From Streptomyces sp. SCL15-4 (GTDB lineage: Bacteria > Actinomycetota > Actinomycetes > Streptomycetales > Streptomycetaceae), in NCBI RefSeq assembly GCF_033366695.1, contig NZ_JAOBTQ010000001.1, positions 5,704,001-5,768,000 on the forward strand: a DNA stretch of 64,000 bases, read 5' to 3'. Below, in pieces: positions 39,905 to 54,114 of the stretch (positions are counted from its first letter, which is position 1; every line of letters starts with the position of its first letter). The notes below the pieces were generated by a model. It was not told the DNA's origin. It made no database searches and was given only the letters and a program-made list of their open reading frames with translations. The translations under genes were made by a program, and so were the position numbers.

Positions 39905-39977
39905 TCCTCCGTAGCTCAATTGGCAGAGCAGCCGGCTGTTAACCGGCAGGTTACTGGTTCGAGTCCAGTCGGGGGAG
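39905..39977 (+). tRNA. tRNA-Asn (GTT), copy 1
   Basis: 73 nt cloverleaf. Acceptor TCCTCCG pairs with CGGGGGA (one wobble), anticodon GTT in loop CTGTTAA, T-loop GGTTCGAGTCC, discriminator G. CCA is not encoded. Confidence 0.97.
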
Positions 39978-39983
39978 CTTCGG

Positions 39984-40056
39984 TCCTCCGTAGCTCAATT
40001 GGCAGAGCAGCCGGCTGTTAACCGGCAGGTTACTGGTTCGAGTCCAGTCGGGGGAG
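39984..40056 (+). tRNA. tRNA-Asn (GTT), copy 2
   Basis: Base-for-base repeat of copy 1 after a 6-base spacer; the two are almost certainly cut from one transcript. Confidence 0.97.
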
Positions 40057-40065
40057 CGCTGAACG

Positions 40066-40088
40066 AGGACCCCTCAGGGGTCCTTTTT
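40066..40088 (+). terminator. Rho-independent terminator of the tRNA-Asn operon
   Basis: 8-bp stem AGGACCCC/GGGGTCCT with a TCA loop, followed by five T. Nothing gene-like was found from here to the next tRNA at 40234. Confidence 0.9.
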
Positions 40089-40233
40089 CATGTCCGGCGG
40101 AACCGCCGCGCCCGTGGCGCTGTCCTCAAGGTCATGAGCGGCAGCGCGGAAGCCGACCAGCCGAGGCAGGAGATCGTATGAGCGGCTATGCTGCGGCAGA
40201 CGGCGCGCACACTTGTACGCGACACGCCGCTAT

Positions 40234-40307
40234 GGGGCGGTAGCTCAGCCGGTTAGAGCAGCGGACTCATAATCCGTCGGCCGTGGGTTCGAGTCCCACC
40301 CGCCCCA
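40234..40307 (+). tRNA. tRNA with CAT anticodon (elongator Met, or Ile2)
   Basis: 74 nt cloverleaf. Acceptor GGGGCGG pairs with CCGCCCC, anticodon CAT in loop CTCATAA, T-loop GGTTCGAGTCC, discriminator A. Starts GGGG with full first pair, so it is not initiator. Met elongator and lysidine-modified Ile2 cannot be told apart by eye. Confidence 0.92.
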
Positions 40308-40390
40308 CCTCAGCACGGCGATGCAGGATCGTTTTGACCTGCACCGGCCCCGTGTCCACCGCACGCTACGCGGTTTCCGCCGCCCCGCTG

Positions 40391-40419
40391 CAACCCTTTG
40401 CCCCGTCCCGGTGTTCTGT
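40391..40419 (+). promoter_or_regulatory. Predicted ECF-type promoter of the alkylation-repair operon
   Basis: CAACCC (40391-40396), 17-base spacer and TTCTGT (40414-40419). The AAC-type -35 is typical of ECF promoters. The -10 ends six bases before the sigma ATG, with no Shine-Dalgarno, predicting a leaderless, possibly autoregulated transcript. Confidence 0.45.
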
Positions 40420-40425
40420 TCGGTG

Positions 40426-41019
40426 ATGGATGAGAGTGCCGAGCGGCAGCTGACCGAGCTCCTGGCCGTGGACCTCGACGACGGCTTCACCGAGCTGGTC
40501 CGGGTCCACGGCAGAGCCGTGTACACGTTCCTGCTCCGGGTCTCCGGCTCGGCCACCGAGGCGGACGACCTGGGACAGGACGTCTTCCTGCGCGCCTACA
40601 CCGCGTTACAGGGCTACGACCGCGAGCGCCGGCGGCAGCTCAAGACGCGCGCCTGGCTGCTCACCGTCGCCGCCAACGTCTGGCGCAACCACCTGCGCAC
40701 CTGCTCGCGCCGCCCGGCCCTGACGGGCGTGCCCGTGGAGGACTCCGGCGACGCCTGGACGGACCACAGTCCGGGACCGGAGGAGCTGGCCGCGCTCGCC
40801 GAGGACCGGCGGCGCCTGGTCGTGGCGTTGCTGGAACTGCCCGAGCACCACCGCGCGCCGGTGGTGCTCCGGCATGTACTGGGACTGAGCTACACGGAAG
40901 TCGCCGAGGTGCAGCGGTGCGCGGTCGGGACGGCCAAGGCACAGGTGTCCCGCGGCCTGAAGGGCCTGCGCCGGCTGCTGGAGCCGGAGACGGCCCTGCT
41001 GGAGGAGGTGATGACATGA
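40426..41019 (+). CDS. ECF RNA polymerase sigma factor of the alkylation-repair operon
   Basis: 197 residues with sigma region 2 (FTELVRVHGRAVYTFLLRV, ATEADDLGQDVFLRAY, TRAWLLTVAANVWRNHLR) and region 4 (LELPEHHRAPVVLRHVLGLS, VGTAKAQVSRGLKGLRRLL). Codon 61 is TTA (40606-40608), the rare leucine codon read by the bldA tRNA, so translation should depend on development. Its stop overlaps the ATG of the Ada-like gene (ATGA), so the two proteins are made together. No classical zinc anti-sigma gene is present; the Ada-like product may be the regulator. GTG at 40423 is an alternative start. Predicted targets are this operon and perhaps other repair genes. Confidence 0.88.
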   Translation: MDESAERQLTELLAVDLDDGFTELVRVHGRAVYTFLLRVSGSATEADDLGQDVFLRAYTALQGYDRERRRQLKTRAWLLTVAANVWRNHLRTCSRRPALTGVPVEDSGDAWTDHSPGPEELAALAEDRRRLVVALLELPEHHRAPVVLRHVLGLSYTEVAEVQRCAVGTAKAQVSRGLKGLRRLLEPETALLEEVMT

Positions 41020-41816
41020 GGAGTGACCGAGAGGTACCGCGCCTCGACGCGGCCCGGTCCGGCCTGGCCGGACTCGTCACGGAACCACCGGCGGACTTCG
41101 CCGTGCGCGTGCTGCGCCGCGCCGGCGTCCCGCGTGAGCGCTACGACACCTATGTCCGCCTCGACACCGCCGCCGGCGGTCTCTTCGTGGCGGCGAGCGC
41201 GGAGGCGGTGACCGGAGCCGCGCTGGACACCGGCGGGCTGAGCGCACCGGGCTTCGAGGAACTGCACCGCTCCCGGACCCGCCGTCCGGCCCTGCGGTCG
41301 GCCAGACCGTTCCCGGGGGTCGTCACCGCGCTGCGCACCGGCCGCGCCCGGCGCCTGCCCGTCGATCTGTCGCCGCTCGGCCCGGTGGAGCGGGCCGTGC
41401 TGGAGGCCGTGCGCACCATCCCGGCCGGACAGCTGCGCCCGGTCGGCTGGATCGCCCGGGAGGCCGCGGTGGCACCGGACGACGTGCTCGGCGCGCTGGC
41501 CCACAACCCGGCCGCGGTGCTGATCCCCTGCCACCGGGTGACGTACGACGACGGCACCCCGTGCGACGCCGGCCACCTGCCCGCGACGGGCGAGGCGCTG
41601 CGCGCCGCCGAGGGCGTCGACGCGGGACGGGCGGCCGAGCTGCGGCGGCGCGGCGCGGTGTTCCTCGGCAGCGACACGACCCGGATCTACTGCCACCCCA
41701 CCTGCGCCCACGCCCGCCGCATCACCCCGCCCCACCAGGTGCCGTTCCGTACCGCCCGGGAAGCCGGGCGGGCCGGGTACCGGGCCTGCAAGAGCTGCCG
41801 GCCCGTCACCGTGTGA
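41016..41816 (+). CDS. Ada-like protein: MGMT domain plus C-terminal Ada zinc methyl-acceptor domain
   Basis: 266 residues. Residues about 45-190 resemble O6-alkylguanine-DNA methyltransferase: a degenerate N-terminal part and the DNA-binding half with acceptor Cys172 in VLIPCHRV. Residues about 213-264 are the Ada zinc domain: Cys226 and Cys230 (RIYCHPTCAHARR), Cys258 and Cys261 (RACKSC). Spacing 4, 28 and 3 nearly equals E. coli Ada (4, 27, 3), where one Cys accepts methyl from phosphotriesters. The order is inverted relative to E. coli Ada and the AraC DNA-binding domain is absent. Coupling to an ECF sigma gene suggests a methyl-sensing role that controls the sigma factor; this is inference. 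N-terminal sequence LVTEPPADFAVRVLRRAG resembles regulatory tails next to sigma genes. Confidence 0.8.
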   Translation: MRSDREVPRLDAARSGLAGLVTEPPADFAVRVLRRAGVPRERYDTYVRLDTAAGGLFVAASAEAVTGAALDTGGLSAPGFEELHRSRTRRPALRSARPFPGVVTALRTGRARRLPVDLSPLGPVERAVLEAVRTIPAGQLRPVGWIAREAAVAPDDVLGALAHNPAAVLIPCHRVTYDDGTPCDAGHLPATGEALRAAEGVDAGRAAELRRRGAVFLGSDTTRIYCHPTCAHARRITPPHQVPFRTAREAGRAGYRACKSCRPVTV

Positions 41817-41831
41817 CGGCCCCTCGCACCC

Positions 41832-41880
41832 ACGGTCACGACCGGACCCGACGGTCACGACCGAACCGACGGTCACGACG
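41832..41880 (+). repeat. Three tandem 12-bp repeats upstream of ogt
   Basis: ACGGTCACGACC at 41832, 41851 and 41869 (last base changed in the third), spaced 19 and 18 bases. The first two carry the inverted repeat CGGTC-AC-GACCG. They fill the 78-base gap between the Ada-like and ogt genes and could bind a regulator on nearly successive double turns or form RNA hairpins. Confidence 0.7.
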
Positions 41881-41894
41881 AACACGGAGTTGTC

Positions 41895-42446
41895 TTGCGA
41901 ACCACTCTCACCCCCGGCGACACCGAGGCGGCGGTCACGGCGCACCCCACACCGCTGGGGCCGCTGGTGCTCGCCGCCACGGCCGACGCGCTCGTGCTGT
42001 GCTGCTACGGCACGGTGGAGGACGCCGCCGCCCGGCTCGCCCGGGGTGGGCTGCGCGCCGTGGCCGAGGAGCGCGCGGACCCGGCCCCGCTGAAGGTGCT
42101 GGCTCAGGCCCGGGACGAACTCGACGCCTATCTCACCGGCGCCCGCCGGGACTTCACCGTGCCGGTGGACCTGCGGCTCGCCACGCCGTTCAGCCGGCAG
42201 ACCGTCATGGCGCTGGAGGCGTTCGTGCCGTACGGGCGCACCGCGACGTACGCGCAGCTGGCCGCCGCGCTGGACCGGCCCCGGGCCGCCCGCGCGGTCG
42301 GCACGGCCCTCGGCGCCAACCCGGTCTGCGTCGTGCTGCCCTGCCACCGGATCGTCGGTTCCGGCGGCAGCCTGAACGGGTATGCGGGCGGTCTGGACGC
42401 CAAACGGTTCCTGCTCGGCCTGGAAGCGGGCCCGGCGGCGCCCTGA
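41895..42446 (+). CDS. ogt: Methylated-DNA--protein-cysteine S-methyltransferase
   Basis: 183 residues. Suicide repair protein that removes methyl from O6-methylguanine. N-terminal fold (HPTPLGPLVLAATADALVL), DNA-binding helix with Arg finger (ARAVGTALGANP), acceptor Cys150 in VVLPCHRIVG, and GYAGGLDAKRFLL. The start is TTG 41895, with GGAG five bases upstream. It is the complete version of the activity; the Ada-like protein upstream is a divergent second copy. Part of the alkylation-repair operon. Confidence 0.93.
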   Translation: MRTTLTPGDTEAAVTAHPTPLGPLVLAATADALVLCCYGTVEDAAARLARGGLRAVAEERADPAPLKVLAQARDELDAYLTGARRDFTVPVDLRLATPFSRQTVMALEAFVPYGRTATYAQLAAALDRPRAARAVGTALGANPVCVVLPCHRIVGSGGSLNGYAGGLDAKRFLLGLEAGPAAP

Positions 42447-42520
42447 CCGGTGGGCGCCGGCCGTCCCCGGCGCCCGCCCCTCTTCTTCCGCACGTCCATC
42501 CGCCACGGAGAGCCACACGC

Positions 42521-43297
42521 GTGAACAGCTACGACAGCCCGCCCCTGCCCGGTCTCGCGGAACCGCCGGCCGCCGCCGCACCCGCCCCGGACGACGACGG
42601 GCCCGGCGTCCTGCCGCCCCTGAACTGGCCCGCCCTCGCCGCCGAGCTGGACGCGGAGGGCGTCGCGCTCACCCCGCCCCTGCTGTCCGCCGAACAGTGC
42701 GCCCGGCTGCGGGAGATGTACGACGAGCCGGCGCTCTTCCGCAGCACGGTGACGATGGCCAGGCACCGGTTCGGCGAGGGCGCCTACCGCTACTTCGCCT
42801 ACCCGCTGCCCGAACCGGTCCGGGCCCTGCGCCGCGAGCTGTACCCGCACCTGGCGCGCATCGCCAACACCTGGGCCGACCGGCTCGGCGAGCCCGGATT
42901 CCCCGACCGCCACGAGGACCTGGTCGCCGCCTGCGCCGCCGCGGGCCAGCACCGGCCGACCCCTCTGCTGCTCCGCTACGAACAGGGCGGCTACAACTGC
43001 CTGCACCAGGACGTGTACGGCGACCTCACCTTCCCGCTCCAGGTGGCGGTGGTGCTGGACCGGCCGGACGAGGACTTCACCGGCGGCGAGAGCGTGTTCG
43101 TGGAGCAGCGGCCGCGCGCCCAGTCCCGGCCCCTGGTGCGGCGGCCGGCGCAGGGACAGGGGCTGATCTTCGCTGTCCACCACCGCCCCGTACGCTCCGC
43201 GCGCGGCTGGAGCCGGGTGATGCTGCGCCACGGGGTGAGCGCCGTGCACAGCGGGCGGCGCCATGTGCTCGGTGTGATCTTCCACGACGCCCGCTGA
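42521..43297 (+). CDS. 2-oxoglutarate/Fe(II) oxygenase (AlkB-like role, COG3826-type)
   Basis: 258 residues. The double-stranded beta-helix core carries the iron triad His162 and Asp164 (LHQDVYGD), His237 (MLRHGVSAV), and Arg247 in GRRHVLGV, placed ten residues after the distal His for binding 2-oxoglutarate. It is not close to classical AlkB in sequence but belongs to the group of oxygenases often found next to ada genes, and probably reverses or detoxifies alkyl damage by oxidative dealkylation. GTG 42521 follows GGAG by ten bases. Last gene of the repair operon, followed by a hairpin at 43394. Confidence 0.78.
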   Translation: MNSYDSPPLPGLAEPPAAAAPAPDDDGPGVLPPLNWPALAAELDAEGVALTPPLLSAEQCARLREMYDEPALFRSTVTMARHRFGEGAYRYFAYPLPEPVRALRRELYPHLARIANTWADRLGEPGFPDRHEDLVAACAAAGQHRPTPLLLRYEQGGYNCLHQDVYGDLTFPLQVAVVLDRPDEDFTGGESVFVEQRPRAQSRPLVRRPAQGQGLIFAVHHRPVRSARGWSRVMLRHGVSAVHSGRRHVLGVIFHDAR

Positions 43298-43393
43298 GCG
43301 GGGCGGCGTCCGGGTGCCTCGCCCCGTGCCGCGGCGAACCCGTGTACGACCGCCGTACCGGCCCGGTTCTGCCGCCTCGCTCCAGTGAAGCCG

Positions 43394-43413
43394 CAGCCCC
43401 GGCAACGGGGCTG
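43394..43413 (+). terminator. Terminator of the repair operon
   Basis: 8-bp stem CAGCCCCG/CGGGGCTG capped by a GCAA tetraloop, about 100 bases after the oxygenase gene. Confidence 0.6.
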
Positions 43414-43453
43414 GTCAGAGCCGCCCGTCCACGCTCCGGGAACTGCCGCTCCG

Positions 43454-43493
43454 GCTGGAGTGCCGCTGGAGATCGGCAACAAGGCCGTTACAT
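43454..43493 (+). promoter_or_regulatory. Candidate SARP site and promoter of the nitrosourea-type operon
   Basis: Direct heptamers GCTGGAG at 43454-43460 and 43465-43471 lie exactly 11 bases apart, the spacing SARP activators recognise. The second occupies the -35 position relative to a -10-like TTACAT (43488-43493, 17-base spacer). The SARP gene of this cluster is the obvious candidate binder. The rest of the gap 43298-43582 shows only the upstream terminator. Confidence 0.4.
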
Positions 43494-43582
43494 ACGGTGG
43501 TTGTGCGACGGCAGGGGACATGTGTGACCTGCCTCGTACCACTGTCAACCCGGCGACACAGCGTTAAGGAGCAGTGGCACAC

Positions 43583-44668
43583 ATGCGGCACGTACAAGAG
43601 GCACGGGCCATGCCCGCGGAGCACGAGGCCCGACCGGCCCCGGTGACCATGCCGGCGAACGGTTCGCCGTACCGTCTGGGAGCGGCGCTGCTGCAGTCGC
43701 TCGCGCAGGAGATGAACGCGCTCGCCGAACAGGCGTCGGCGCTGCTGAGCATGCCCCCGGAGGAGCTGTCCCTGGATGCGGACGCCTTCGCCCAGATCGC
43801 CCGCAGAAACGTTCCACGCTGGCACTTCGCCATGCTCAACGACATCGAGCGCAATACCGCGCTGATGACCGCCCTGGAGCGGGGCATCCCGGCGGGGTCG
43901 ACCGTGCTGGACATCGGCTCCGGCAGCGGACTGCTCGCCATGGCCGCCGCCCGGGCCGGCGCGAGCAGGGTCTTCACCTGCGAGATGAACCCGCTGCTGG
44001 CCGAGATCGCCCGGAACGTCGTCAACGCGCACGGCCTGTCCGACGTCATCACCGTCATCGGCAAGCCGTCCACCGGCCTGGACCCGGTGCGCGACCTCGG
44101 CGGACCGGTGGACGTCCTGGTGTCGGAGATCGTCGACTGCGGCCTGATCGGCGAGGGCCTGCTGCCCTCCGTGCGCCACGCCCGCGAGCACCTGCTGAAG
44201 CCGGACGGGATCATGCTGCCCTCGGCGGCCCGGCTGCACGGCCGGCTGGTCAGCAGCGAGGCGGTGCTGAAGCTGAACCAGGCCACCACGGCCGGCGGCT
44301 TCGACGTCTCGCTCATGAACACGTTCGCGACCCGCGGCCACTTCCCGGTCCGGCTCGACACCTGGCCGCACCGGTTCCTGTCCGAGACGGCGCCGCTGGT
44401 CGAGTTCGACCTCGCGCGGTCCCCGCTCGAACCCGGCGAACGCCCCCTCGCCCTGACCGCCACCGCCGACGGCGAGGCCCAGGCCCTCGCCGTCTGGTTC
44501 GAGCTGGACATGGGCAGCGGCATCACCTTGTCCAACCCGCCGGACAACCCCCGCTCGCACTGGATGCAGGGCTGGGTCCCGCTGGAGAAGCCCGTGCCGA
44601 CCAAGGCCGGCGAGACGGTCGCCCTCCGGCTCGGCTGGAGCGACTTCACCCTCCGCGCGAGCATCTGA
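43583..44668 (+). CDS. sznE: Arginine N-methyltransferase, SznE type (PRMT fold)
   Basis: 361 residues. SAM-binding motif VLDIGSGSGLLA (108-119) with ribose-binding Glu134; double-Glu loop SEIVDCGLIGEG with Glu182 and Glu191 nine residues apart, exactly as in protein arginine methyltransferases, where they clamp the guanidine; THW-like loop SHWMQGW (326-329 HWMQ). In streptozotocin biosynthesis SznE methylates free L-arginine to N-omega-methyl-L-arginine, the SznF substrate; the next gene encodes an SznF-type enzyme, so the same step is inferred. ATG 43583 is preferred; AAGGAG (43566-43571) is too close to GTG 43574. An N-terminal helical extension of ~60 residues precedes the fold. Confidence 0.88.
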   Translation: MRHVQEARAMPAEHEARPAPVTMPANGSPYRLGAALLQSLAQEMNALAEQASALLSMPPEELSLDADAFAQIARRNVPRWHFAMLNDIERNTALMTALERGIPAGSTVLDIGSGSGLLAMAAARAGASRVFTCEMNPLLAEIARNVVNAHGLSDVITVIGKPSTGLDPVRDLGGPVDVLVSEIVDCGLIGEGLLPSVRHAREHLLKPDGIMLPSAARLHGRLVSSEAVLKLNQATTAGGFDVSLMNTFATRGHFPVRLDTWPHRFLSETAPLVEFDLARSPLEPGERPLALTATADGEAQALAVWFELDMGSGITLSNPPDNPRSHWMQGWVPLEKPVPTKAGETVALRLGWSDFTLRASI

Positions 44669-44738
44669 CACCCCCTCACCCGGCACCGGCCACAAGCCGG
44701 CCGCCGTACCCGTCTGGACCAGGACCAGGGAGCAAGCG

Positions 44739-46157
44739 ATGAGCCACGTCCCTCCGCACGTCCCGTTCGAACTCGGCGGTGCCGAACTGCGCGACGCGGT
44801 CGTGCAGTACGCCACCGCCCCGATCTACCACGACAACCTGGACTGGGTGAACCACGACAATCCCTACCGCCGGCAGCTCAGGCCGCAGGTGCTGCCGCAC
44901 CTGGACTACGACCGGGTCCCGGGCCGGGAGAACATCCTCGACTACGCGAGCCTGGCCGTGCAGCGCCTGCTGACCTCCGTCTACGAGGCCGACCTCGTGT
45001 TCTTCCCCAAGGCCGGGCTGAAGGGCAAGGAGGAGGACTTCCGGGCGTTCTACAGCCCCGCCAACCGGGCGCTCGGCGAGCGGATCCGGCCGGCGCTGGA
45101 GCGCTACGCCTTCGGCTTCCTCGACGACGAGGTGGAGACCTCCGGCAACTGGACCGCGCAGAGCCTGGACGCCTACCTGGACTCGCTCGACACCGCGGGC
45201 GGCGAGGAGCAGATGCCGGCGGAGAAGGCCATCCTCGGCTCGGCCGACCCCCGGCGGGCGGCCCGGATGTGGCTGGTGCAGTTCGCGCCGGACTTCCTCT
45301 CCGAGGCCTCGCCGATGATGCGCAACGTGCTCGGCTACTACGGCCCGGCCCAGTCCGAGTGGTTCAAGGTCGTCATCGACGAGTACGGCTACGGCGTCCA
45401 CGACACCAAGCACAGCACCCTGTTCGAACGGACCCTGGAGTCGGTGGGCCTGGAGTCCGACCTGCACCGGTACTGGCAGTACTACCTGAACAGCAGCCTG
45501 CTGCTGAACAACTACTTCCACTACCTGGGCAAGAACCACGAGCTGTTCTTCCGTTACGTCGGCGCGCTCTACTACACCGAAAGCTCCCTGGTCGACTTCT
45601 GCCGCCGCGCCGACAAGCTGCTGCGCGAGGTCTTCGGCGACACGGTGGACACCACCTACTTCACCGAGCACGTCCACATCGACCAGCACCACGGCCGGAT
45701 GGCCCGCGAGAAGATCATCAAGCCGCTGGTGGAGGCGCACGGCGACGGCATCATCCCGGAGATCGTGCGGGGCATCGAGGAGTACCGGGTGCTGCTGGAG
45801 GTCGGCGACTTCGACTTCTCCGAGCAGATCGCGTGGATGGACGCCCAGCCCGAGCTGAAGAAGCTGCACGGACCGGTCTTCGAGGGGCTCAAGCAGGGCA
45901 AGGTCGACGCGCCGGTGGCCCACCTCGTCGAACCGCGCGGCGAGCTGTCCAACACCCACTGCCACGACGGCGACGAGCTGTGCCACATCGTCTCCGGCAC
46001 CATGCGCTTCGAGAGCGGCCTGGGCTCCTCGCTGATCCTGCGGGCCGGCGAGGGCGTCGTCATCAAGCGCAACCGGCTGCACGGCGCGAACATCGAGTCG
46101 GACGAGTGCGTCTACGAGATCCACTCCGTCGGGGACTACCGCGCGTGCCTGTCGTGA
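44739..46157 (+). CDS. sznF: N-nitrosating metalloenzyme, SznF type (di-iron HDO plus cupin)
   Basis: 472 residues. N-terminal helical dimerisation region, central haem-oxygenase-like di-iron oxidase domain (about 145-330) and C-terminal mononuclear-iron cupin (about 385-472). Ligands for the di-iron site are at Glu189, Glu215, His225, Glu281, His311, Asp315 and His318; cupin ligands are His407, His409 and His448, with Tyr459 nearby. These numbers coincide with those I remember for SznF. SznF hydroxylates N-omega-methylarginine twice at the guanidine and then rearranges it to an N-nitrosourea. Complete conservation argues for the same reaction here. AGGGAG precedes the ATG; the stop overlaps the Rieske gene start. 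Confidence 0.93.
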   Translation: MSHVPPHVPFELGGAELRDAVVQYATAPIYHDNLDWVNHDNPYRRQLRPQVLPHLDYDRVPGRENILDYASLAVQRLLTSVYEADLVFFPKAGLKGKEEDFRAFYSPANRALGERIRPALERYAFGFLDDEVETSGNWTAQSLDAYLDSLDTAGGEEQMPAEKAILGSADPRRAARMWLVQFAPDFLSEASPMMRNVLGYYGPAQSEWFKVVIDEYGYGVHDTKHSTLFERTLESVGLESDLHRYWQYYLNSSLLLNNYFHYLGKNHELFFRYVGALYYTESSLVDFCRRADKLLREVFGDTVDTTYFTEHVHIDQHHGRMAREKIIKPLVEAHGDGIIPEIVRGIEEYRVLLEVGDFDFSEQIAWMDAQPELKKLHGPVFEGLKQGKVDAPVAHLVEPRGELSNTHCHDGDELCHIVSGTMRFESGLGSSLILRAGEGVVIKRNRLHGANIESDECVYEIHSVGDYRACLS

Positions 46158-46522
46158 CCTTCACCGCCGAGGGGCGGGACAACTGCGCGGTCATCGAGGG
46201 AACGCCGTACGTCTACGCGACGGTCGGCGGCCGGGGCTTCGTGATGCGGGCCCGGTGCCCGCACCGCGGCGGCCCGCTGCACCTGGCCGGGATGGCCGAG
46301 GACGGCATCCGGCTGGTGTGCCCCTGGCACGAGCGGGGGACCTCCCTGGCCCGGATGCGGGCGGAGGTCCCGGCCGTACGGGTGGGCGACCGGGTCACCG
46401 CCGTCTTCCCCGAGCACCCGCCGGCCCGCGGCTGGCCGGCCCCGCCCCGGGACTGCGCCGTCGGCCTGGAACACCGGCCGCTGTCGCCCGCGCTGAGCCG
46501 CCCGCGCGCGGCGGCCGGCTGA
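46154..46522 (+). CDS. Rieske [2Fe-2S] protein of the nitrosourea-type cluster
   Basis: 122 residues. Cluster ligands are Cys-x-His in RCPHRGGPLH and Cys-x2-His in VCPWHERG. No oxygenase domain, so it is a small electron-transfer protein. GTG 46154 overlaps the sznF stop (GTGA), implying co-production; GTG 46145 is possible. The likely role is to deliver electrons to the di-iron site of the SznF-type enzyme, which needs external reductant; this is inference. A 16-bp hairpin follows. Confidence 0.85.
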   Translation: MTFTAEGRDNCAVIEGTPYVYATVGGRGFVMRARCPHRGGPLHLAGMAEDGIRLVCPWHERGTSLARMRAEVPAVRVGDRVTAVFPEHPPARGWPAPPRDCAVGLEHRPLSPALSRPRAAAG

Positions 46523-46571
46523 CCCGCCGGCCACTGCAACGCCCCGGCGCCGGCCGGTGTTGTACAGACGG

Positions 46572-46615
46572 CCGGTCCGGGTGCCGGCCGGCGCGGCCCC
46601 CGGCACCCGGACCGG
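46572..46615 (+). terminator. Strong hairpin inside the biosynthetic cluster
   Basis: A perfect 16-bp GC-rich stem (46572-46587 with 46600-46615) and a 12-base loop in the 126-base gap between the Rieske and ATP-grasp genes. It divides the gene set into sznEF-Rieske and the later genes, as terminator or attenuator. Confidence 0.6.
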
Positions 46616-46648
46616 ACCACGAGTGATCACACGTGAGGAGAGCGGAAC

Positions 46649-47899
46649 ATGGGCAGGGACGGTGACAAGCCGCTGCTGCTGCTGATCGGCAGCAGTTCGC
46701 GGCGCAGCCGGGAGTTCATCCTGCGATCGGTGAGCCGGCGCTATGCGCTCTGGCTGCTCCAGCCGGCCCCGGTGACCTGGGAGGAGCCCTACGTCGTCGG
46801 CGGCACCGAGGTCGACAACACCCGTCCCGAACTCCTCGTCGAGGCCGCCCGCCAGGTGGCCGCCGAGCACGAGGTGACGGGCGTGTTCTGCTACGACGAG
46901 GGCCTGGTCACCCCGGCCGCGCACGTGGCCGAGGCGCTGGGGCTGCCGGGGAACTCCGCCGAGACCGTGGCCGCCTGCCGGGACAAGAACGCCACGCGGA
47001 CCGCGCTGGAGCGGGCCGGGGTCGCCCAGCCCGTCTCCATCGGCGTGCGCTCCCTGGACGAGGCCCGCCAGGCGGCGGACAAGATCGGCTTCCCGGTCGT
47101 GCTCAAGCCGCGCGGACTGGCCGGCGGCATGGGCGTGCGCCGGGCCGACGGGCCCGGCGACATCGAGAGCGCCTACCGCGCGGCGACCGGCGTCTCCTAC
47201 CCGGGCGTGCCCGTCTTCGAGGTGTCGGTGCTGGTCGAGGAGTACGTCGACGGGCCCGAGATCAGCGTCGACGCCGTCTTCTTCGAGGGCGAGGGCACCC
47301 CGCTGGCGGTGGCCCGCAAGCAGGTCGGGTTCGCGCCCTTCTTCGAGGAGACCGGGCACGAGGTCGACGCGGCCGACCCGCTGCTGTCCGACCCGCGGCT
47401 CCTCGAGGCGCTGCGGGCCAGCCACGCCGCGCTCGGCTTCCACACCGGCGTCAGCCACACCGAGTTCCGGCTCACCGCCGACGGCCCGCGCCTGATGGAG
47501 GTCAACGCCCGCCTCGGCGGCGACATGATCCCCTACCTCGGCGAGCTGGCCACCGGCGTCGACATCGCGATGGCGGCGGCCGACGTCGCGGCGGGCCGGC
47601 GCCCCGAGACCACGCCGACCCGGCGGCGGGCCGCGGCGATCACGTTCCTGTACCCCGAGCGGGACACCGAGATCGAGTCGGTGACCGTCCACGAGGACCG
47701 CTTCCCGGCCGGCATCCACGGCGCCGACCCCATGGCCGACCCGGGGGCCGTGCTGCGGCTGCCGCCGCGCGGCTACATCTCCCGGTACGCCCGGGTCATC
47801 GCCCTCGCCGACTCCATGGAGCGGGCACGGGCGGCGCTGCTGAAGGCGCCGGAGATCGTGGAACTCGCGGGCCGCCCGGTGGCGGAGCCGCCCCGATGA
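46649..47899 (+). CDS. ATP-grasp ligase 1 of the nitrosourea-type cluster
   Basis: 416 residues. Pre-ATP-grasp domain, then ATP-grasp with the lysine-containing glycine loop VVLKPRGLAGGMGVRRA, VEEYVDGPEISVDAVFF and the metal-binding strand GPRLMEVNARLGGDMIP, as in BacD/carnosine-synthase-like amino acid ligases. It should form an amide or peptide bond between a carboxylate and an amine by way of acyl phosphate. Substrates are unknown; the arginine-derived nitroso amino acid or a precursor is likely. AGGAG precedes the ATG. The stop overlaps the MFS start (ATGA). Confidence 0.85.
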   Translation: MGRDGDKPLLLLIGSSSRRSREFILRSVSRRYALWLLQPAPVTWEEPYVVGGTEVDNTRPELLVEAARQVAAEHEVTGVFCYDEGLVTPAAHVAEALGLPGNSAETVAACRDKNATRTALERAGVAQPVSIGVRSLDEARQAADKIGFPVVLKPRGLAGGMGVRRADGPGDIESAYRAATGVSYPGVPVFEVSVLVEEYVDGPEISVDAVFFEGEGTPLAVARKQVGFAPFFEETGHEVDAADPLLSDPRLLEALRASHAALGFHTGVSHTEFRLTADGPRLMEVNARLGGDMIPYLGELATGVDIAMAAADVAAGRRPETTPTRRRAAAITFLYPERDTEIESVTVHEDRFPAGIHGADPMADPGAVLRLPPRGYISRYARVIALADSMERARAALLKAPEIVELAGRPVAEPPR

Positions 47900-49191
47900 C
47901 GACCGGACAGACGTCCGCCGGGCCGGGGAAGGCGGGCCGGCCGTCGGTCCTGGAGGCCCTGCGGGGGATCCCGGGCCCCATCTGGCTCGTGCTCGTCGGC
48001 ATGCTGGTCAACCGGCTCGGCAACTTCCTCCAGATCTACCTGGTGCTCTACCTGACCGCCAAGGGCTTCTCCGCGACGGAGGCCGGGTTCGCGCTCGGCG
48101 CCTACGGCGTGGGCTCGGTGGCCGGTGTGCTGATCGGCGGCTCGGCCTCCGACCGCATCGGCTACGCGTGGACGATCGTCGGGTCCATGGCGCTCGCCGG
48201 CCTGGGCACGCTGAGCCTGCCCCACCTGGACAGCCTGCCCCTGGTCATCACGGTCGCCGCGGTCATCGGCCTGCTGGCGCAGATGTACCGGCCGGCCTCC
48301 TCGGCCCTGCTGGTGGAACGCACCCCCGAGAGCCACCACGTGATGGTGTTCGCCGTCTACCGCATGGCGTTCAACCTCGGCACCACGGTGGGCCCGCTGC
48401 TCGGCGCGCTCCTCATCAGCCACTCGTACGATCTGATCTTCTATCTGGAGGCCGGGGCGCAGCTCGGCTTCGCCGCCTTCGCCCTGGTCCTGGCGCGCTC
48501 CGGAGGCATGGCGAAGCAGGCCGAGCCGCACGCCGACGCCCCGAGCCGGTCGTACACCGCCGTGCTGCGCGACACCCGGTACGTGCTGTTCCTGCTGGCG
48601 CTCTTCCTCAACGCCGTCGTCTACATCCAGCACACCTCCGCGCTGCCGCTCCAGATCAAGGCCGACGGACACAGCGTGGCCTTCTACTCCAGCCTGCTGT
48701 CGCTGAACGCCGTCATGGTCATCTGCCTGGAGCTGCTGTTCACCAAGTACGTGCAGCACCTGCCCGGCAAGGTCGCCGTGGCGCTCGGCGTCGGCCTGGT
48801 CGGCGTCGGGATGAACCTGTACGTGGCCGGGCCCGCCATGGCCATGTACGTCGTGGCGACGGTGGTGTGGACGGCCGGCGAGATGATCGGCACGCCGACC
48901 GCCTCGGCCTGGCCGGGCAAGGTCGCCCCCGAGCACCTGCGCGGCCGCTACATCGCCGCCGCCGCCTTCCCCATGCAGATCGGCTACGCGGTCGGCCCGG
49001 TGCTCGGCGTCGCCGCCTGGCAGCTGTCGCACGCGTCCGTGTGGTGGCTGTCCGGGCTGCTGACCGTGGGTGCCGTGGCGGCCGCCCTGGCCGGCATGAG
49101 CGAGCGCCGCGCGGACCCCGGCACCGGCACCGCCCCGGCCGGCGAGAAGCCGGCCGGACGCGGCGGACCGGTCGCCGCCGACACTCCCTGA
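47896..49191 (+). CDS. MFS transporter of the nitrosourea-type cluster
   Basis: 431 residues, about 12 membrane helices, with the MFS loop motif GGSASDRIGYAWTIVGS between helices 2 and 3. Likely exports the product or a protected intermediate, giving efflux in addition to repair. Translationally coupled to ATP-grasp ligase 1. Confidence 0.88.
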   Translation: MTTGQTSAGPGKAGRPSVLEALRGIPGPIWLVLVGMLVNRLGNFLQIYLVLYLTAKGFSATEAGFALGAYGVGSVAGVLIGGSASDRIGYAWTIVGSMALAGLGTLSLPHLDSLPLVITVAAVIGLLAQMYRPASSALLVERTPESHHVMVFAVYRMAFNLGTTVGPLLGALLISHSYDLIFYLEAGAQLGFAAFALVLARSGGMAKQAEPHADAPSRSYTAVLRDTRYVLFLLALFLNAVVYIQHTSALPLQIKADGHSVAFYSSLLSLNAVMVICLELLFTKYVQHLPGKVAVALGVGLVGVGMNLYVAGPAMAMYVVATVVWTAGEMIGTPTASAWPGKVAPEHLRGRYIAAAAFPMQIGYAVGPVLGVAAWQLSHASVWWLSGLLTVGAVAAALAGMSERRADPGTGTAPAGEKPAGRGGPVAADTP

Positions 49192-49235
49192 CCCGCCCCA
49201 CCGCACCCCTGGATTCGGAAGCGAGCGAGCCGCGC

Positions 49236-50192
49236 ATGGCCTACGCAGAAGGCATAGAGAAGTTCGTGGAGACGGTCAACGGCGCGCTGCCGCCGGACTT
49301 CTACACCTACCCCGTCGAACGGCAGCGGGTCCTGTACGACGCGCTGACCGAGGTCCTCCCCATCCCCGTGCCCGAGGGCGTCCGGCACCGGGACGCCACC
49401 GTGGAGCACGAGGGCCGCACGGCCCGCATCCGCGTCTACGAACCGGCCGAACGCACCGGCGACGCCGTGCTGTTCTACATCCGCGGCGGCGGCTTCGTCA
49501 TCGGCTCGCTGCACAGCCACCACAGCCTGGTCGCCGAACTCGCCGACCGCACCGGCCTGGTGACGATCGCGCTGGACTTCGGCATGGCCCCGGAGAACCC
49601 GTTCCCCGGCCCGCTGGAGGACTGCTACGCCGGACTGTGCGGCACCCTCGCCGCCCTGCCCGCGCTGGGCCTCGGCGCCCTCGACCCGGACGGCGCGGTG
49701 ATCTGCGGGGAGAGTTCGGGCGCCAACATGGCGGTGGTGCTGTCGATGATGGCGCGCGACCGCGGCGGCCCCCGCCCGCGCGGCCAGGCGGTGATCAGCC
49801 CGGTGCTGGACTTCACCCGCTGGCGCGACGGCGGCGAGGACGCGCCCCTGCTGTCCGGCGGCGAGATGGAGTTCTACACCGCCTGCTACTGCCCGAAACC
49901 GGAACAGGCCGCGGACCCTTACGTCTCGCCACTGCTCGGCGGGGCCTTCCACGACCTGCCGCCGGCCTACGTCGTCGGCTGCGCGATGGACTCCCTGTGC
50001 GTGGACGCGGAGAAGTACACCGCCCTGCTCAAGGAGCACGGCACGCCGGTCACGTATGTGCGCGAGGAGGGCATGGTGCACGCCCCGGTGCGCGCCCGGC
50101 GGGTCAGCGAGCCCGCGGCGGACTTCTTCGCCCGCTACTGCGCCGCCGTCGCGGCGCTGGCCCGGAAGGAAACCGTCGATGGCGGGCACTGA
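49236..50192 (+). CDS. Alpha/beta hydrolase (hormone-sensitive-lipase family) of the cluster
   Basis: 318 residues. Triad Ser160 (GESSG), Asp252 (CAMDSL) and His282 (MVHAP) is complete. The family oxyanion motif HGGG is changed to RGGG (FYIRGGGFVIG, residues 83-86). It may hydrolyse an ester or amide, or have acyltransferase or non-hydrolytic activity. ATG 49236 has only a weak ribosome site (GGAAGCGAG). It overlaps the next ATP-grasp gene by 14 bases. Confidence 0.82.
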   Translation: MAYAEGIEKFVETVNGALPPDFYTYPVERQRVLYDALTEVLPIPVPEGVRHRDATVEHEGRTARIRVYEPAERTGDAVLFYIRGGGFVIGSLHSHHSLVAELADRTGLVTIALDFGMAPENPFPGPLEDCYAGLCGTLAALPALGLGALDPDGAVICGESSGANMAVVLSMMARDRGGPRPRGQAVISPVLDFTRWRDGGEDAPLLSGGEMEFYTACYCPKPEQAADPYVSPLLGGAFHDLPPAYVVGCAMDSLCVDAEKYTALLKEHGTPVTYVREEGMVHAPVRARRVSEPAADFFARYCAAVAALARKETVDGGH

Positions 50193-51453
50193 CCCGCGCA
50201 CCGGACCGGGCGGCGGCCCCTGCGTCGTCGTCGACCCCTACTCCTCCGGTGCCCTCTTCGCCGACGCGCTGCGCGAGCGGGGCGTCCCGGTCGCGGCGGT
50301 GGTCAGCAGCCCCCGCCCGCCCGAGGCGTTCGCCTCCTCCTACCGGCCCGGCGACTTCCCCGACGTCATCGTCCACGACGGCGACCTGGACGAGGTCGTG
50401 CAGCGGGTGCGGGCGCTGGACCCGCGCTGTGTCATCGCAGGCTGCGAGTCCGGCGTGGAACTGGCCGAACGGCTCTCTCCCCGGGTGCTGCCCGCGCTGA
50501 GCAACGTACCGGCCCTGGCCGAAGCCCGCCGGGACAAGAGCCGGATGGCCGACGCCGTACGGGCCGCCGGGCTGCCGGTCATCCCGCAGCTGTGCACCGC
50601 CGACGTCGAGGAGGCGGCCGCCTGGCTGGAGCGCGAGGGCCTGGCCGGGGCCGACCTCGTGATCAAGCCGCCCAAGAGCGCCAGCACCGACGGCGTGACC
50701 AAGGTGCCGGGCGGCGCGGACTGGCGGGCCGTGTTCGAGCGGCAGATCGGCCGGGTCAACCAGTTCGGCGAGGTCGACGACCGGCTCGTCGTGCAGAAGT
50801 TCGTCACCGGCACCGAGTACGTGGTGGACACCTTCAGCCACGACGGCAAGCACTCCCTGGTGGACGTGTGCGCCTACGGCAAGGTCGACAACGGCCCGCA
50901 CATGGCCGTCTACGACACCATGCGCTGGCTGCCGCCGGACGACCCGGCCGTGGCCGTCCTGACGGAGTACGTCTTCGGCGTGCTGGACGCGGTGGGCGTC
51001 CGCTTCGGCTCCGCCCATGTCGAGGTGATGGGCACCGCCGACGGCCCGCTGCTCATCGAGCTGGGCGCCCGTCCGCACGGCGGCGGCCAGCCGCGGTTCA
51101 ACCGCAACGCCACCGGCGACAGCCAGATCGACCGGACGGTGCGCTGGCTCACCGGCGGCGAACTGCCGCAGAGCTACGAACTGCTGACCCACCAGATGTG
51201 CGTCTTCCACATGGCCCGCCGCTCCGGGACGGTGCGCGGCACCGCAGTCCTGGACGAGATCCGGACCCTGCCGAGCCACCACTTCTCGGTGCGGAACCTG
51301 TCCGACGGCGACCGGGTCCCCGTCACCAAGGACCTGGTCGACAGCCTCGACTTCGGGTTCGTGATCCTCGCCCACCCGGACGCGGAGCAGATCGAGCGGG
51401 ACTACCGGGCCGTGCGCGCCCTGGAGCGGCGGCTGGCCATCACGGAGCCGTGA
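50179..51453 (+). CDS. ATP-grasp ligase 2 of the nitrosourea-type cluster
   Basis: 424 residues. ATP-grasp motifs are DLVIKPPKSASTDGVTKV, VVQKFVTGTEYVVDTFSHDG and HVEVMGTADGPLLIELGARP. Distinct from ligase 1, so two separate condensations are implied. The C-terminal lid region (THQMCVFHMARRSG) is typical of this ligase group. ATG 50179 lies inside the end of the hydrolase gene after AAGGAA. Last gene of the rightward operon; a strong terminator follows. Confidence 0.84.
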   Translation: MAGTDPRTGPGGGPCVVVDPYSSGALFADALRERGVPVAAVVSSPRPPEAFASSYRPGDFPDVIVHDGDLDEVVQRVRALDPRCVIAGCESGVELAERLSPRVLPALSNVPALAEARRDKSRMADAVRAAGLPVIPQLCTADVEEAAAWLEREGLAGADLVIKPPKSASTDGVTKVPGGADWRAVFERQIGRVNQFGEVDDRLVVQKFVTGTEYVVDTFSHDGKHSLVDVCAYGKVDNGPHMAVYDTMRWLPPDDPAVAVLTEYVFGVLDAVGVRFGSAHVEVMGTADGPLLIELGARPHGGGQPRFNRNATGDSQIDRTVRWLTGGELPQSYELLTHQMCVFHMARRSGTVRGTAVLDEIRTLPSHHFSVRNLSDGDRVPVTKDLVDSLDFGFVILAHPDAEQIERDYRAVRALERRLAITEP

Positions 51454-51512: not shown

Positions 51513-53693
51513 TCAGGCCGTCCGGACCGGCTCCGCCTCCTCCCGGCCGGGCAGCGTCCTGGCGTACCGGAGCAGCGGGGCGGGCACGTCGAACCGGCCG
51601 AGCGCGTGCTCGCGCACCATGCTCGCGTCGGCCAGGCGGCACAGGGCCCACCGGGCCTCGCCCGGTGTCAGGCCGGCCAGCTCCGCCATGGTGTACGCGG
51701 TGATGTCGGCGCCTGTGGTTTCGCCGAGCAGCCGGAACACCCGGCGGGCCGGCCCGGGCAGCGCCGCGTAGGACGGCTCGAAGGCCGCGTGGACCGAGCA
51801 CAGCAGGCTGTCCTGCGCGTCGGAGGGCTGCCGGACCAGCCCGCCGGCCTGCAACTCGGCGTAGTACCGGGCGATGCCGAGACCGGGATGCTGCGCCAGC
51901 CGCGTCGACAGGATGCGCAGCACCAGCGGCAGACCGCCGCAGTACTTGCCCAGGGCCATGGCGGCCAGGGGTTCCCGCTCGACGCGTTCGGGCCCCAGCA
52001 GCCGGCCGAGCAGCGTCAGCGTCTCCTCGTCGTCCAGCCCGTCGACGGCGACCCGCTGGACGCCCTCCCGGGCCGTCAGGTCGGGCAGGGCGTTGCGGCT
52101 GGTGACGAGCACGGCGCAGCCGGCGTCGCCGGGGATCAGGGGCCGGATCTGGTCCGCGTCCCACGCGTCGTCGAGCACGACCAGGACGCGCCGGCCGGAC
52201 AGCCGGGTGCGGTAGAGGTTCGTCGCCTCGCCGAGGGTGCCGGGGATCCGGTCGCCGGGGACGCCGAGGGCGCGCAGGAACGAGGACATCGCCTCCAGGG
52301 CGCCCGGCGGGCGCTGCCGGGCGTGGCCGTGCAGGTCGGCGTAGAGCCGGCCGTCCGGGAAGCGGTCGAGCACCCGGTGCGCCCAGCGCAGCGCGATCGC
52401 CGTCTTGCCCACACCGGGCGGCCCGGTGATCAGCGCCGCCGGGACCTGCCCGTCCCGCTCGCCCGGGGCGAGCAGCAGCCGGTCCAGCTCCCGGAGCTGG
52501 CCGGTCCGCCCGACGAAGTGACGATTCAGCCCGGGAAGTTGGGACGGCCGGACCTCGGGCGGTTCGGACGGGGCCGGCGGCGCGGTCTCCCGCGGGGCCG
52601 GCGCCGCCCGCCGGGCCGGCACTTCGCCGGCGTGCCCGGTCAACTGCTGTTGCAGGACCTGCACATGGGCCTGGCGCAGCTCCCGGCCGGGTTGCAGGCC
52701 CAGTTCGGCGTCGAGGCGCCGGCCGACGTCGGCGAACACCCGCAACGCCTCCGACTGCTCGCCGCAGCAGGCCAGCGCCAGCATCAGCCGCGCCTGGAGC
52801 CGTTCGTTCAGCGGCTCGTCCTCGGCGGCGGTGTACAGCGCGGGCACCACCAGTTCCGGCTGCCGGAACCGCAGCGCGAGGTCCGCGTACAGCAGCAGGT
52901 TCTCGGTCCGCTGCCGGGTCGCGGCCGTGGCCGCCGGATGCAGGGCCAGCTGGGGTTCCTCGGTCAGGACCGGGCCGCGCCAGCAGCGGTGCGCCCGGCT
53001 CGCGAACTCGTAGGCGGCCGTATGGTCGCCGTCGGCGTGGGACCGCCGCGCCATGTCCGCCAGGTCCTGGAAACGGGTCAGGTCGACCTGGTCGCGTCCG
53101 AGGGACAGCGCGTAGCCGACGGGGGTGCGGACCAGGCACGACGGGGCCTGGTCCGCGGGGCCGGAACCGGGGGAGCGCAGCAGTCCGCGCGCCTGGCTCA
53201 CATAGGTGTGGATCAGGTTCTGGTAGGAGCGGGGCGGTTCCTTCGGCCAGAGCGTACGGCCTATTTCGTCCAGGCTGGCGGACTCGGGATGGCACAGTGC
53301 CAGCAGGGACAATAACCTGCGCAGTTTGCAGGCGCGCACTTCGGTCACGGTGCCGCCGCGATCGATGGTGAGGGCGCCGAGAATGCCGATACGCAGGCCC
53401 GATTCGCCCCGGCCCTCGGGTTTCCGGCTCCGTGACACGGAATGCCGGATCTCGTCGACCTCGAGGCCGAGGACGCCGGCCAGCCGCCGCAGCGTGCGGG
53501 CCTGCGGCTGTTCCACCCGGCCGCTCTCGATGTCGCGCAGGGCCCGCACACTGATCCCGGACAACTCGGCGAACTCCCGCTGGGTCAGGCCGGTCCGCTC
53601 CCGGAACGTCCGGACCTGGATGTGGAAGGGAAGCGCCGGCCTCGGGTGGAGCGGACGGTCTGTGACAGTTCCGGTGATACGAAGGTCCGGCAT
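51513..53693 (-). CDS. XRE-SARP-NB-ARC regulator, probable pathway-specific activator
   Basis: 726 residues. Order: XRE/Cro helix-turn-helix (28-82, FRERTGLTQREFAELSGISV), OmpR-like DNA-binding domain (about 100-195), BTAD domain (203-350), Pro-rich linker, then NB-ARC ATPase (395-640) with Walker A GPPGVGKT at 424-431 and VLVVLDDAWD. It lacks the C-terminal TPR region of AfsR. Codon 127 is TTA (53313-53315), the bldA target codon that often gates cluster activators. Probable switch of the adjacent nitrosourea-type operon. ATG 53691-53693 has only a G-rich upstream stretch as ribosome site. Confidence 0.87.
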   Translation of the reverse strand: MPDLRITGTVTDRPLHPRPALPFHIQVRTFRERTGLTQREFAELSGISVRALRDIESGRVEQPQARTLRRLAGVLGLEVDEIRHSVSRSRKPEGRGESGLRIGILGALTIDRGGTVTEVRACKLRRLLSLLALCHPESASLDEIGRTLWPKEPPRSYQNLIHTYVSQARGLLRSPGSGPADQAPSCLVRTPVGYALSLGRDQVDLTRFQDLADMARRSHADGDHTAAYEFASRAHRCWRGPVLTEEPQLALHPAATAATRQRTENLLLYADLALRFRQPELVVPALYTAAEDEPLNERLQARLMLALACCGEQSEALRVFADVGRRLDAELGLQPGRELRQAHVQVLQQQLTGHAGEVPARRAAPAPRETAPPAPSEPPEVRPSQLPGLNRHFVGRTGQLRELDRLLLAPGERDGQVPAALITGPPGVGKTAIALRWAHRVLDRFPDGRLYADLHGHARQRPPGALEAMSSFLRALGVPGDRIPGTLGEATNLYRTRLSGRRVLVVLDDAWDADQIRPLIPGDAGCAVLVTSRNALPDLTAREGVQRVAVDGLDDEETLTLLGRLLGPERVEREPLAAMALGKYCGGLPLVLRILSTRLAQHPGLGIARYYAELQAGGLVRQPSDAQDSLLCSVHAAFEPSYAALPGPARRVFRLLGETTGADITAYTMAELAGLTPGEARWALCRLADASMVREHALGRFDVPAPLLRYARTLPGREEAEPVRTA

Positions 53694-54114
53694 GCCCCCC
53701 CCGGTGCCGAGTGATGAATCAGCCCCCTGGCAGTGCTCGATTGCTGGCGATCGTAAGTCGAATGGCCCGGTGGCGCAATTTACGCGGCGTGAACTCCGAA
53801 TAGCGCCGCCGCATATTCCTCCCGGCGCAAAACTATGCACCGGAAGTCATTGACCGAAAAGCACTATTGACATCATCGCGGCAAGGACTCGGACCGCGAG
53901 CGGGCGGCGCGGCCGGACCGGCGCCACGTGGCCGGGACCCGGCACGCCGGGCTCGGCCGGCCGCGCCGGAAGGGAGGTTTCCGCCATCCTGACGGTGTGC
54001 GGGACCGGCCGGATCCCGGATGCCGGGGCCGGCGGGGGCTGTCCGGCCGGTGCCACCGTCCCTACCGTGGGGAGCGCCCGCGCGCCGCACGGTTCCGCGA
54101 AGGAGAACGGCCGT
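53694..54114. other. Divergent control region, SARP / M20 genes
   Basis: A 421-base gap, AT-richer than its surroundings between 53740 and 53880. It contains TTGACC and TTGACA-like hexamers near 53850-53870 and scattered GGCGCAA-type motifs (53772, 53824) without regular spacing. No gene was found. It should hold the promoters of both divergent genes. Confidence 0.4.

Follow-up and report, generated by a model that had tools for sequence, protein, structure and literature searches.

A sigma factor and a domain-swapped Ada protein in a probable self-protection and control module of nitrosourea-type producers

Gene organization of the locus

We analyzed a stretch of 64,000 nucleotides (the window) from the 8.42-Mb genome of Streptomyces sp. 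SCL15-4, in which a module of one extracytoplasmic function (ECF) sigma factor gene and three repair-type genes directly precedes a biosynthetic gene cluster of the SznE/SznF type. All genes from 40426 to 51453 lie on the forward strand (Table 1). The SznF homologue, which combines a diiron-type domain with a cupin, matches the solved SznF (6m9r) over residues 1-471 with 1,057.8 bits, and its gene stands beside that of an SznE of the protein arginine methyltransferase (PRMT) type; from these genes the product is predicted to be a nitrosourea. An initial annotation, made from the sequence alone, had placed an alkylguanine methyltransferase, an Ada-like protein and an oxygenase about 290 bases upstream of sznE on the same strand and had spoken of four repair genes. 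Position and strand were borne out, with a measured gap of 276 bases between the oxygenase stop and sznE, and the set proved to hold three repair-type genes and one sigma factor gene.

The second protein of the module had been described as an Ada-like phosphotriester/MGMT protein. It does join a four-cysteine Ada zinc domain to an MGMT domain, a trait of the Ada response, in reversed order: the MGMT fold comes first and the Ada zinc domain is C-terminal. A Pfam scan of this protein returned only PF01035 and PF02805, and no AraC-type helix-turn-helix. We call this domain-swapped Ada type AdaSw; AdaSw, MGMT2 and AHBA cluster are labels coined in this analysis. The AdaSw gene overlaps the sigma gene by four bases (ATGA), in the place usually taken by an anti-sigma gene, and no anti-sigma domain was found among the scanned window genes. 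Four-base overlaps also join sznF to the Rieske gene and the ATP-grasp gene to that of the major facilitator superfamily (MFS) transporter, and the hydrolase and ATP-grasp genes overlap by 14 bases.

Table 1. Genes and predicted promoter sites of the locus, in window coordinates
Feature	Position	Strand	Basis or detail
Predicted ECF-type promoter, GCAAC-N15-GGTGTT	40390..40415	+	directly 5' of sigma gene
ECF sigma factor, 197 aa	40426..41019	+	Sigma70_r2, Sigma70_r4_2
AdaSw: N-terminal helices, MGMT-fold domain, C-terminal Ada zinc domain	41016..41816	+	PCHR 171-174; C226, C230, C258, C261
MGMT2, O6-alkylguanine-DNA alkyltransferase	41895..42446	+	family, PCHR
PF09859 2-oxoglutarate/Fe(II) oxygenase (Oxygenase-NA), probable direct-reversal dealkylase	42521..43297	+	Pfam
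sznE homologue, PRMT-type arginine N-methyltransferase	43574..44668	+	Pfam
sznF homologue, N-nitrosating enzyme	44739..46157	+	Haem_oxygenas_2 (diiron) + cupin
Rieske-type ferredoxin	46154..46522	+	Pfam
Second exact promoter copy, predicted	46536..46561	+	87 bases 5' of ATP-grasp/MFS/hydrolase/ATP-grasp operon
ATP-grasp ligase 1	46649..47899	+	family
MFS transporter, probable exporter	47896..49191	+	family
Alpha/beta hydrolase (Abhydrolase_3)	49236..50192	+	Pfam
ATP-grasp ligase 2	50179..51453	+	family
Streptomyces antibiotic regulatory protein (SARP)-type regulator (BTAD, NB-ARC)	51513..53840	-	domains

Co-occurrence and linkage of the module with sznF

Across 392 Streptomyces genomes, which served as the control set, sznF was scored as present at ≥70% identity and AdaSw at E ≤ 1e-15. 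We found sznF in eight genomes, three further genomes with relatives of 28-44% identity being counted as negative, and AdaSw in 14, namely all eight sznF genomes and six of the 384 others (G046, G179, G180, G287, G302 and G340; handles beginning with G, C and L denote genomes, contigs and loci). AdaSw is thus found far more often with the cluster than without it (8/8 versus 6/384), the pattern expected of self-resistance; equal frequency of the repair operon in strains lacking sznF, which the initial annotation had named as the outcome that would speak against it, was not seen. AdaSw lies 1.7-9.8 kb from sznF in all eight genomes, and 13 of the 14 AdaSw genomes carry it either beside sznF (8) or in a second type of cluster (5).

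A named collection of 20 loci from 18 genomes, chosen for having sznF and therefore without a control among them, yielded 22 sznF matches, or 21 sznF loci after one match at 40% identity was dropped; G397 and G227 are the same contig, and this one genome is counted in both sets. An MGMT-fold gene lies within 25 kb in 14 of the 21 loci. Coordinates place an Ada zinc domain no more than 95 bases behind an MGMT domain, on the same strand, somewhere in 16 of the 18 named genomes. No such pair was found in the assembly of G398. In G404, the MGMT and Ada pieces are separate, the sigma gene beside them is 35% identical, and a copy of the promoter described below is missing. L208 of Sphaerisporangium album shows this picture, its diverged sigma gene lacking the promoter and adjoining MGMT and Ada-zinc pieces that are separate.

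The arrangement of these genes varies. The module lies 5' of the cluster on the same strand in the window, L018, L019, L020 and L038; 3' on the opposite strand in L027, L030, L041, L042 and L043; and 5' on the opposite strand in L028. In a split layout, MGMT2 and the oxygenase lie 5' and the sigma-AdaSw pair past the SARP gene (L021, L023, L025, L039 with L149, and L040 with L148), while in L032 and L034 MGMT2 (same strand) and the oxygenase (opposite strand) precede sznE without AdaSw. The module has been kept near sznF despite this shuffling, suggesting selection for proximity.

Two sznF clusters, separate and unlike in layout, occur in each of Streptomyces sp. SID8352 (L018, L027), G402 (C11, C19) and G407 (C5, C7). 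In the window, two tRNA-Asn genes and one tRNA-Met gene (39905-40309) lie directly before the sigma-repair module and may mark a point of cluster insertion, and an M20-type peptidase/amidohydrolase gene just past the SARP gene (53995-55383) could be part of the pathway.

A predicted promoter shared by repair and biosynthetic genes

Alignment of the sigma-gene starts revealed a two-block sequence, GCAAC-N15-GGTGTT, just 5' of the start codon. Of 35 ECF-AdaSw loci, 30 have an exact copy immediately 5' of the sigma gene (16 of 18 of the sznF type, including L162 of G400, where the contig breaks; 7 of 8 from the second type of cluster; 7 of 9 stand-alone loci). The first in-frame start codon follows 3-10 bases past the copy, and a leaderless start of the sigma gene is likely. 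In the 17 sznF loci with a sigma gene, 43 copies have the N15 spacing and any other spacing between 10 and 20 occurs at most once, and the second cluster type has 15 copies with N15 and one with N16, some of the loci in these counts being parts of one cluster. The reversed or scrambled pattern gave no copy in any locus counted.

A copy also precedes the ATP-grasp 1 gene of the ATP-grasp/MFS operon in 13 of 15 loci (the window, L018-L021, L023, L025, L030, L034, L038-L040 and L204), the two without it being L024 and L031 of genomes G398 and G404. Where the cluster is split, MGMT2 has a copy of its own in front (L021, L023, L025, L039, L040), and further copies stand ahead of amidase genes in L026, L028 and L029, of a frame of the same length in L036, of an MFS gene in L026 and of a hydrolase gene in L033. 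The same two-block sequence before the sigma gene and before its putative targets is, at the level of sequence, the mark of an autoregulated ECF regulon, and lends support to the earlier suggestion that the sigma factor coordinates the immunity of the cluster.

The window genome contains three exact copies, two of them in the cluster, and none of the reversed control; first-order simulations gave 0.007 matches per 11.5 kb, against the two observed. The third copy, C1:7972558 (-), has no accepted downstream reading frame and is probably due to chance. The 14 AdaSw genomes of Streptomyces have 76 copies in all, of which 37 belong to the clusters or, in the case of G340, precede the sigma gene. 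Among 246 genomes of the genus, 141 have a copy; excluding eight AdaSw genomes, 105 of 238 have none, indicating a background near 0.8 per genome. Several copies outside the clusters have similar spacers (G090 C1:8506336, 5726779 and 3236469; G366 C1:551640, C13:9896 and C2:255635) and are possible further targets of the sigma factor.

A second cluster type carrying the same module

Five of the six sznF-negative AdaSw genomes of Streptomyces carry a second conserved cluster type, seen in part in one of them (G046). The sixth, G340, has sigma, AdaSw and MGMT2 genes with the promoter, and no second-type gene set within the 20 kb examined. G179, G180, G287 and G302 share a DeoC-type aldolase, a type II dehydroquinate synthase (DHQS-II), an AMP-binding enzyme and an O-methyltransferase. 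We take the aldolase and DHQS-II, by analogy with GriI/GriH, to serve 3-amino-4-hydroxybenzoate synthesis. A lyase, flavoenzymes, an S-adenosylmethionine synthetase and a PfkB kinase complete the set in G179, G180 and G302, the examined stretch of G287 ending earlier; the contig of G046 breaks off with only the methylenetetrahydrofolate reductase and PfkB genes of the set in view, and further parts were found in G719, G680 and G396 (C17).

The lyase of G180 matches CreD (5xny) with 577.6 bits, and a 670-aa protein of the same genome matches the FAD-binding protein 8cp2 with 703.9 bits, which we presume to be CreE-like. With a CreD-like lyase, an 8cp2-like flavoprotein and an AMP-binding enzyme, the second type resembles the cremeomycin-type diazo clusters (CreD/CreE/CreM); unlike the window, the second-type genomes gave no SznF match at the threshold used. 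Promoter copies stand before the sigma gene, before MFS genes (L140, L144, L193) and before AMP-binding genes (L140, L144, L145).

Two further observations concern the make-up of individual clusters. In L141 (G180), an AraC-type Ada gene and an AlkB-family oxygenase gene (3037-3936 and 18352-19008) bring two kinds of alkylation response into one cluster. In Sphaerisporangium corydalis, L204 (with L033, G406) holds a hybrid run beside sznF, comprising an aldolase/DHQS-II-like pair, an amidase gene, three ATP-grasp genes, an MFS gene and sigma-AdaSw.

Stand-alone pairs and evolution of the module

When genomes were sampled across the class, 8 of the 394 proved to carry AdaSw, among them G000 and G366. 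Around some sigma-AdaSw pairs, the 12-20 kb examined held no cluster of either type: these are two loci of G420 and others of G513, G569, Actinomadura terrae (G409) and Actinokineospora (G402, G405). L199, L201 and L202 have an AlkB-family gene behind the pair; L198-L202 carry the promoter, and L196 and L197 do not. Two further genes of A. terrae have the promoter in front of them, one for a PF09859 protein (L206) and one for an MGMT (L207), each at a great distance from the sznF cluster of that genome. The sznF clusters of Actinokineospora (L029, L032, L034, L036) carry promoter copies, with sigma-AdaSw elsewhere in the genome, which predicts control in trans.

Stand-alone pairs under the same promoter, some with AlkB-family genes (L198-L202), are in keeping with a general chromosomal alkylation-stress operon merely adjoining biosynthetic genes, and so is the presence of PF09859 genes in 98 of the 392 Streptomyces genomes. 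We consider this explanation improbable: AdaSw is confined to 14 of those genomes, eight times beside sznF and five times in the second cluster type, its linkage is kept through rearrangement, and the sigma promoter stands on biosynthetic and export operons.

The AdaSw tree (35 rows) separates a mostly stand-alone group from a mostly cluster group with support of 100/100. The former also takes in the sznF-linked copies of Kutzneria (L028) and Sphaerisporangium (L204). The sznF-linked rows require seven changes, at least five of them forced by well-supported branches. A single origin of all sznF-linked AdaSw genes was accordingly rejected, and repeated exchange or capture is more likely.

AdaSw and the repair proteins

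Among 120 homologues of AdaSw compared, the cysteines of the zinc site are invariant, whereas the MGMT cysteine is lost in some lineages; the PCHR motif is present in 105 of the 120, the window copy included. MGMT2 keeps PCHR in the matches of all 32 relatives. The list of structure matches for AdaSw covers mainly residues 39-205; retroviral integrases among them were attributed to a shared RNase H-like fold and carry no meaning here. Because the zinc cysteines are invariant while the MGMT cysteine is sometimes lost, AdaSw may act as a damage sensor for the sigma factor, and its sequence suggests a sensor more than a repair enzyme.

Alternatively, the sigma factor could be a plain cluster-situated activator without damage sensing, with AdaSw as one more repair enzyme. 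Promoters before assembly and export genes agree with this, as does a PCHR motif that most homologues, including the window copy, retain. We nevertheless regard it as rather unlikely, given the invariant zinc site of a protein whose MGMT cysteine is dispensable in some lineages, the stand-alone pairs by AlkB-family genes with no evident biosynthetic target, and the recognition of ECF groups beside MGMT genes, such as ECF122, whose regulation is uncharacterised according to the part of PMC8999054 available.

PF09859 genes are found in 7 of the 8 sznF genomes and in 91 of the 384 others, and are linked to sznF in just five of the eight. The family was rejected as a cluster marker, being too common in the genus and unlinked in G090 and G366. 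The oxygenases adjoining sznF are 63-100% identical to the window copy, all others compared 50.8-61.6%, and the sznF-linked ones need two changes on a quick tree. Presence of the promoter within 500 bases upstream was uninformative as a test of these genes, because the 13 sznF-linked copies follow MGMT2 and lack a promoter just as the 31 unlinked copies of the genus do; among 58 copies, a single oxygenase gene has one, seen twice (L123, L206).

This closeness of the sznF-linked oxygenases, in a family without a relative of solved structure, would fit a role of the oxygenase and AdaSw in biosynthesis instead of repair. Such a role seems very improbable, since no oxygenase is seen in a number of sznF loci that have the module (L027, L028, L030, L041, L042, L043), and A. 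terrae keeps PF09859 and MGMT genes under the same promoter on stretches apart from its sznF cluster (L206, L207).

Discussion

Repair-based self-resistance of the producer is well supported by our comparison, with 13 of 14 AdaSw genomes placing the gene beside sznF or in the second cluster type and with a linkage that survives rearrangement. Its core is already in print: in the part available, PMC9040887, citing Ng 2019, credits streptozotocin resistance to repair by AGT and AlkB homologues. The streptozotocin clusters szn/stz of Streptomyces achromogenes (BGC0002313, BGC0002294), whose SznE/SznF chemistry is treated in the accessible part of PMC11705231, are like the window in their SznE and SznF homologues, to which the comparison is limited, and a sigma promoter network was not found in the portions of these accounts examined. 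Genome mining has led to over 400 cryptic clusters (PMC10849742), an article with no occurrence of resistance or repair in the main text as far as available.

The sigma-AdaSw pair can be set against several known systems. Like E. coli Ada, which is autoregulated and has AlkB/MGMT-type effectors, AdaSw unites a zinc-cysteine phosphotriester domain with an MGMT domain; it differs in the reverse domain order, the missing AraC helix-turn-helix and the loss of the MGMT cysteine in some copies, and its likely partner in transcription is an ECF sigma factor. PMC8999054 lists ECF122 sigma factors as neighbours of 6-O-methylguanine DNA methyltransferases and gives their mechanism as still uncharacterised. 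By description, this likewise is an ECF gene beside an MGMT-type gene with no recognised anti-sigma gene, whereas the promoter, the swapped Ada domain and the link to biosynthetic clusters do not appear in the portions of that account examined. Beyond this mention, the literature searched holds no description of an ECF/Ada alkylation regulon, and the open-licence literature searched holds none of the sigma regulon or its sharing by two cluster types, which is weak evidence. AlkZ (azinomycin), YtkR2 (yatakemycin) and TxnU/LldU are also repair genes inside genotoxin clusters; they are glycosylases for bulky adducts, in contrast to the direct reversal of small alkyl groups, under a dedicated sigma factor, predicted for the window. 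Three elements appear new here: a sigma regulon and its promoter, a candidate sensor with a swapped Ada domain, and a second cluster class that reuses the package.

In the mechanism that we propose, the ECF sigma factor would recognize GCAAC-N15-GGTGTT and transcribe its own operon (sigma, AdaSw, MGMT2 and oxygenase) as well as the operon for late assembly and export (ATP-grasp, MFS, hydrolase and ATP-grasp). Judging from their families, MGMT2 would clear O6-alkyl groups from guanine, the PF09859 oxygenase would clear N-alkyl groups, and the MFS protein would export the product. AdaSw would most likely read methyl phosphotriesters through its invariant four-cysteine zinc site and set the activity of the sigma factor, such that methylation of DNA by the product would raise immunity and export together. 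The sigma regulon would then comprise repair, export and late assembly, and the SARP, by inference, would activate the early genes.

Several observations weigh against this reading. The association of AdaSw with sznF (Fisher p = 2.3e-13) is overstated, because the clusters share descent. Seven of the 21 sznF loci have neither an MGMT-fold nor a PF09859 gene within 25 kb (G396, G398, G402 (C11), G404, G407 (C7), G408 on an 8.9-kb contig, and G409). The PF09859 oxygenase has no sequence match in the PDB, and its activity on DNA is taken from its family. The sigma genes of L043, L145, L196, L197 and L204 lack an exact promoter copy immediately in front of them, the promoter of L145 having one mismatch and the copy of L204 heading an ATP-grasp-MFS-sigma-AdaSw run; L209 of G408 likewise has no exact copy in that place. 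Where no sigma gene is linked to sznF (11 loci), the preference for N15 is less sharp (nine copies, with four of N17 and two of N20). In G398 (Actinomadura rubrisoli), a 9.7-kb contig has a copy before an MGMT gene (L205 1468 (-)), and no AdaSw was found in the assembly; sigma-AdaSw may sit in an assembly gap, and the contrast offered by L024 is weaker for it. The 14 AdaSw genomes hold 39 copies elsewhere, about 2.8 per genome compared with the background near 0.8, which may be either further targets or noise. Finally, sznE-sznF have no conserved promoter copy, which is why we assign them to the SARP; a one-mismatch copy at 43476 before sznE was rejected, as it is not conserved in six relatives compared by eye.

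Taken as a whole, the gene content and its comparison across genomes make it quite probable that the module serves the self-protection and control of a nitrosourea producer. A more specific idea, which we put forward tentatively and hold to be slightly short of an even prospect, is that sigma-AdaSw is an undescribed methylation switch, in which methyl transfer to the swapped Ada zinc site directly controls the sigma factor, and that nitrosourea and diazo-type producers have repeatedly captured it so that their own damage drives repair, export and final synthesis.

For makers of small DNA-methylating drugs, the proposed module suggests, in a form that can be tested, how survival and the timing of production may be achieved, and it would represent a sigma-factor version of the Ada response. 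The sigma-AdaSw pair together with GCAAC-N15-GGTGTT may also provide a search handle for clusters of alkylating compounds, one that already points to a CreD-like class.

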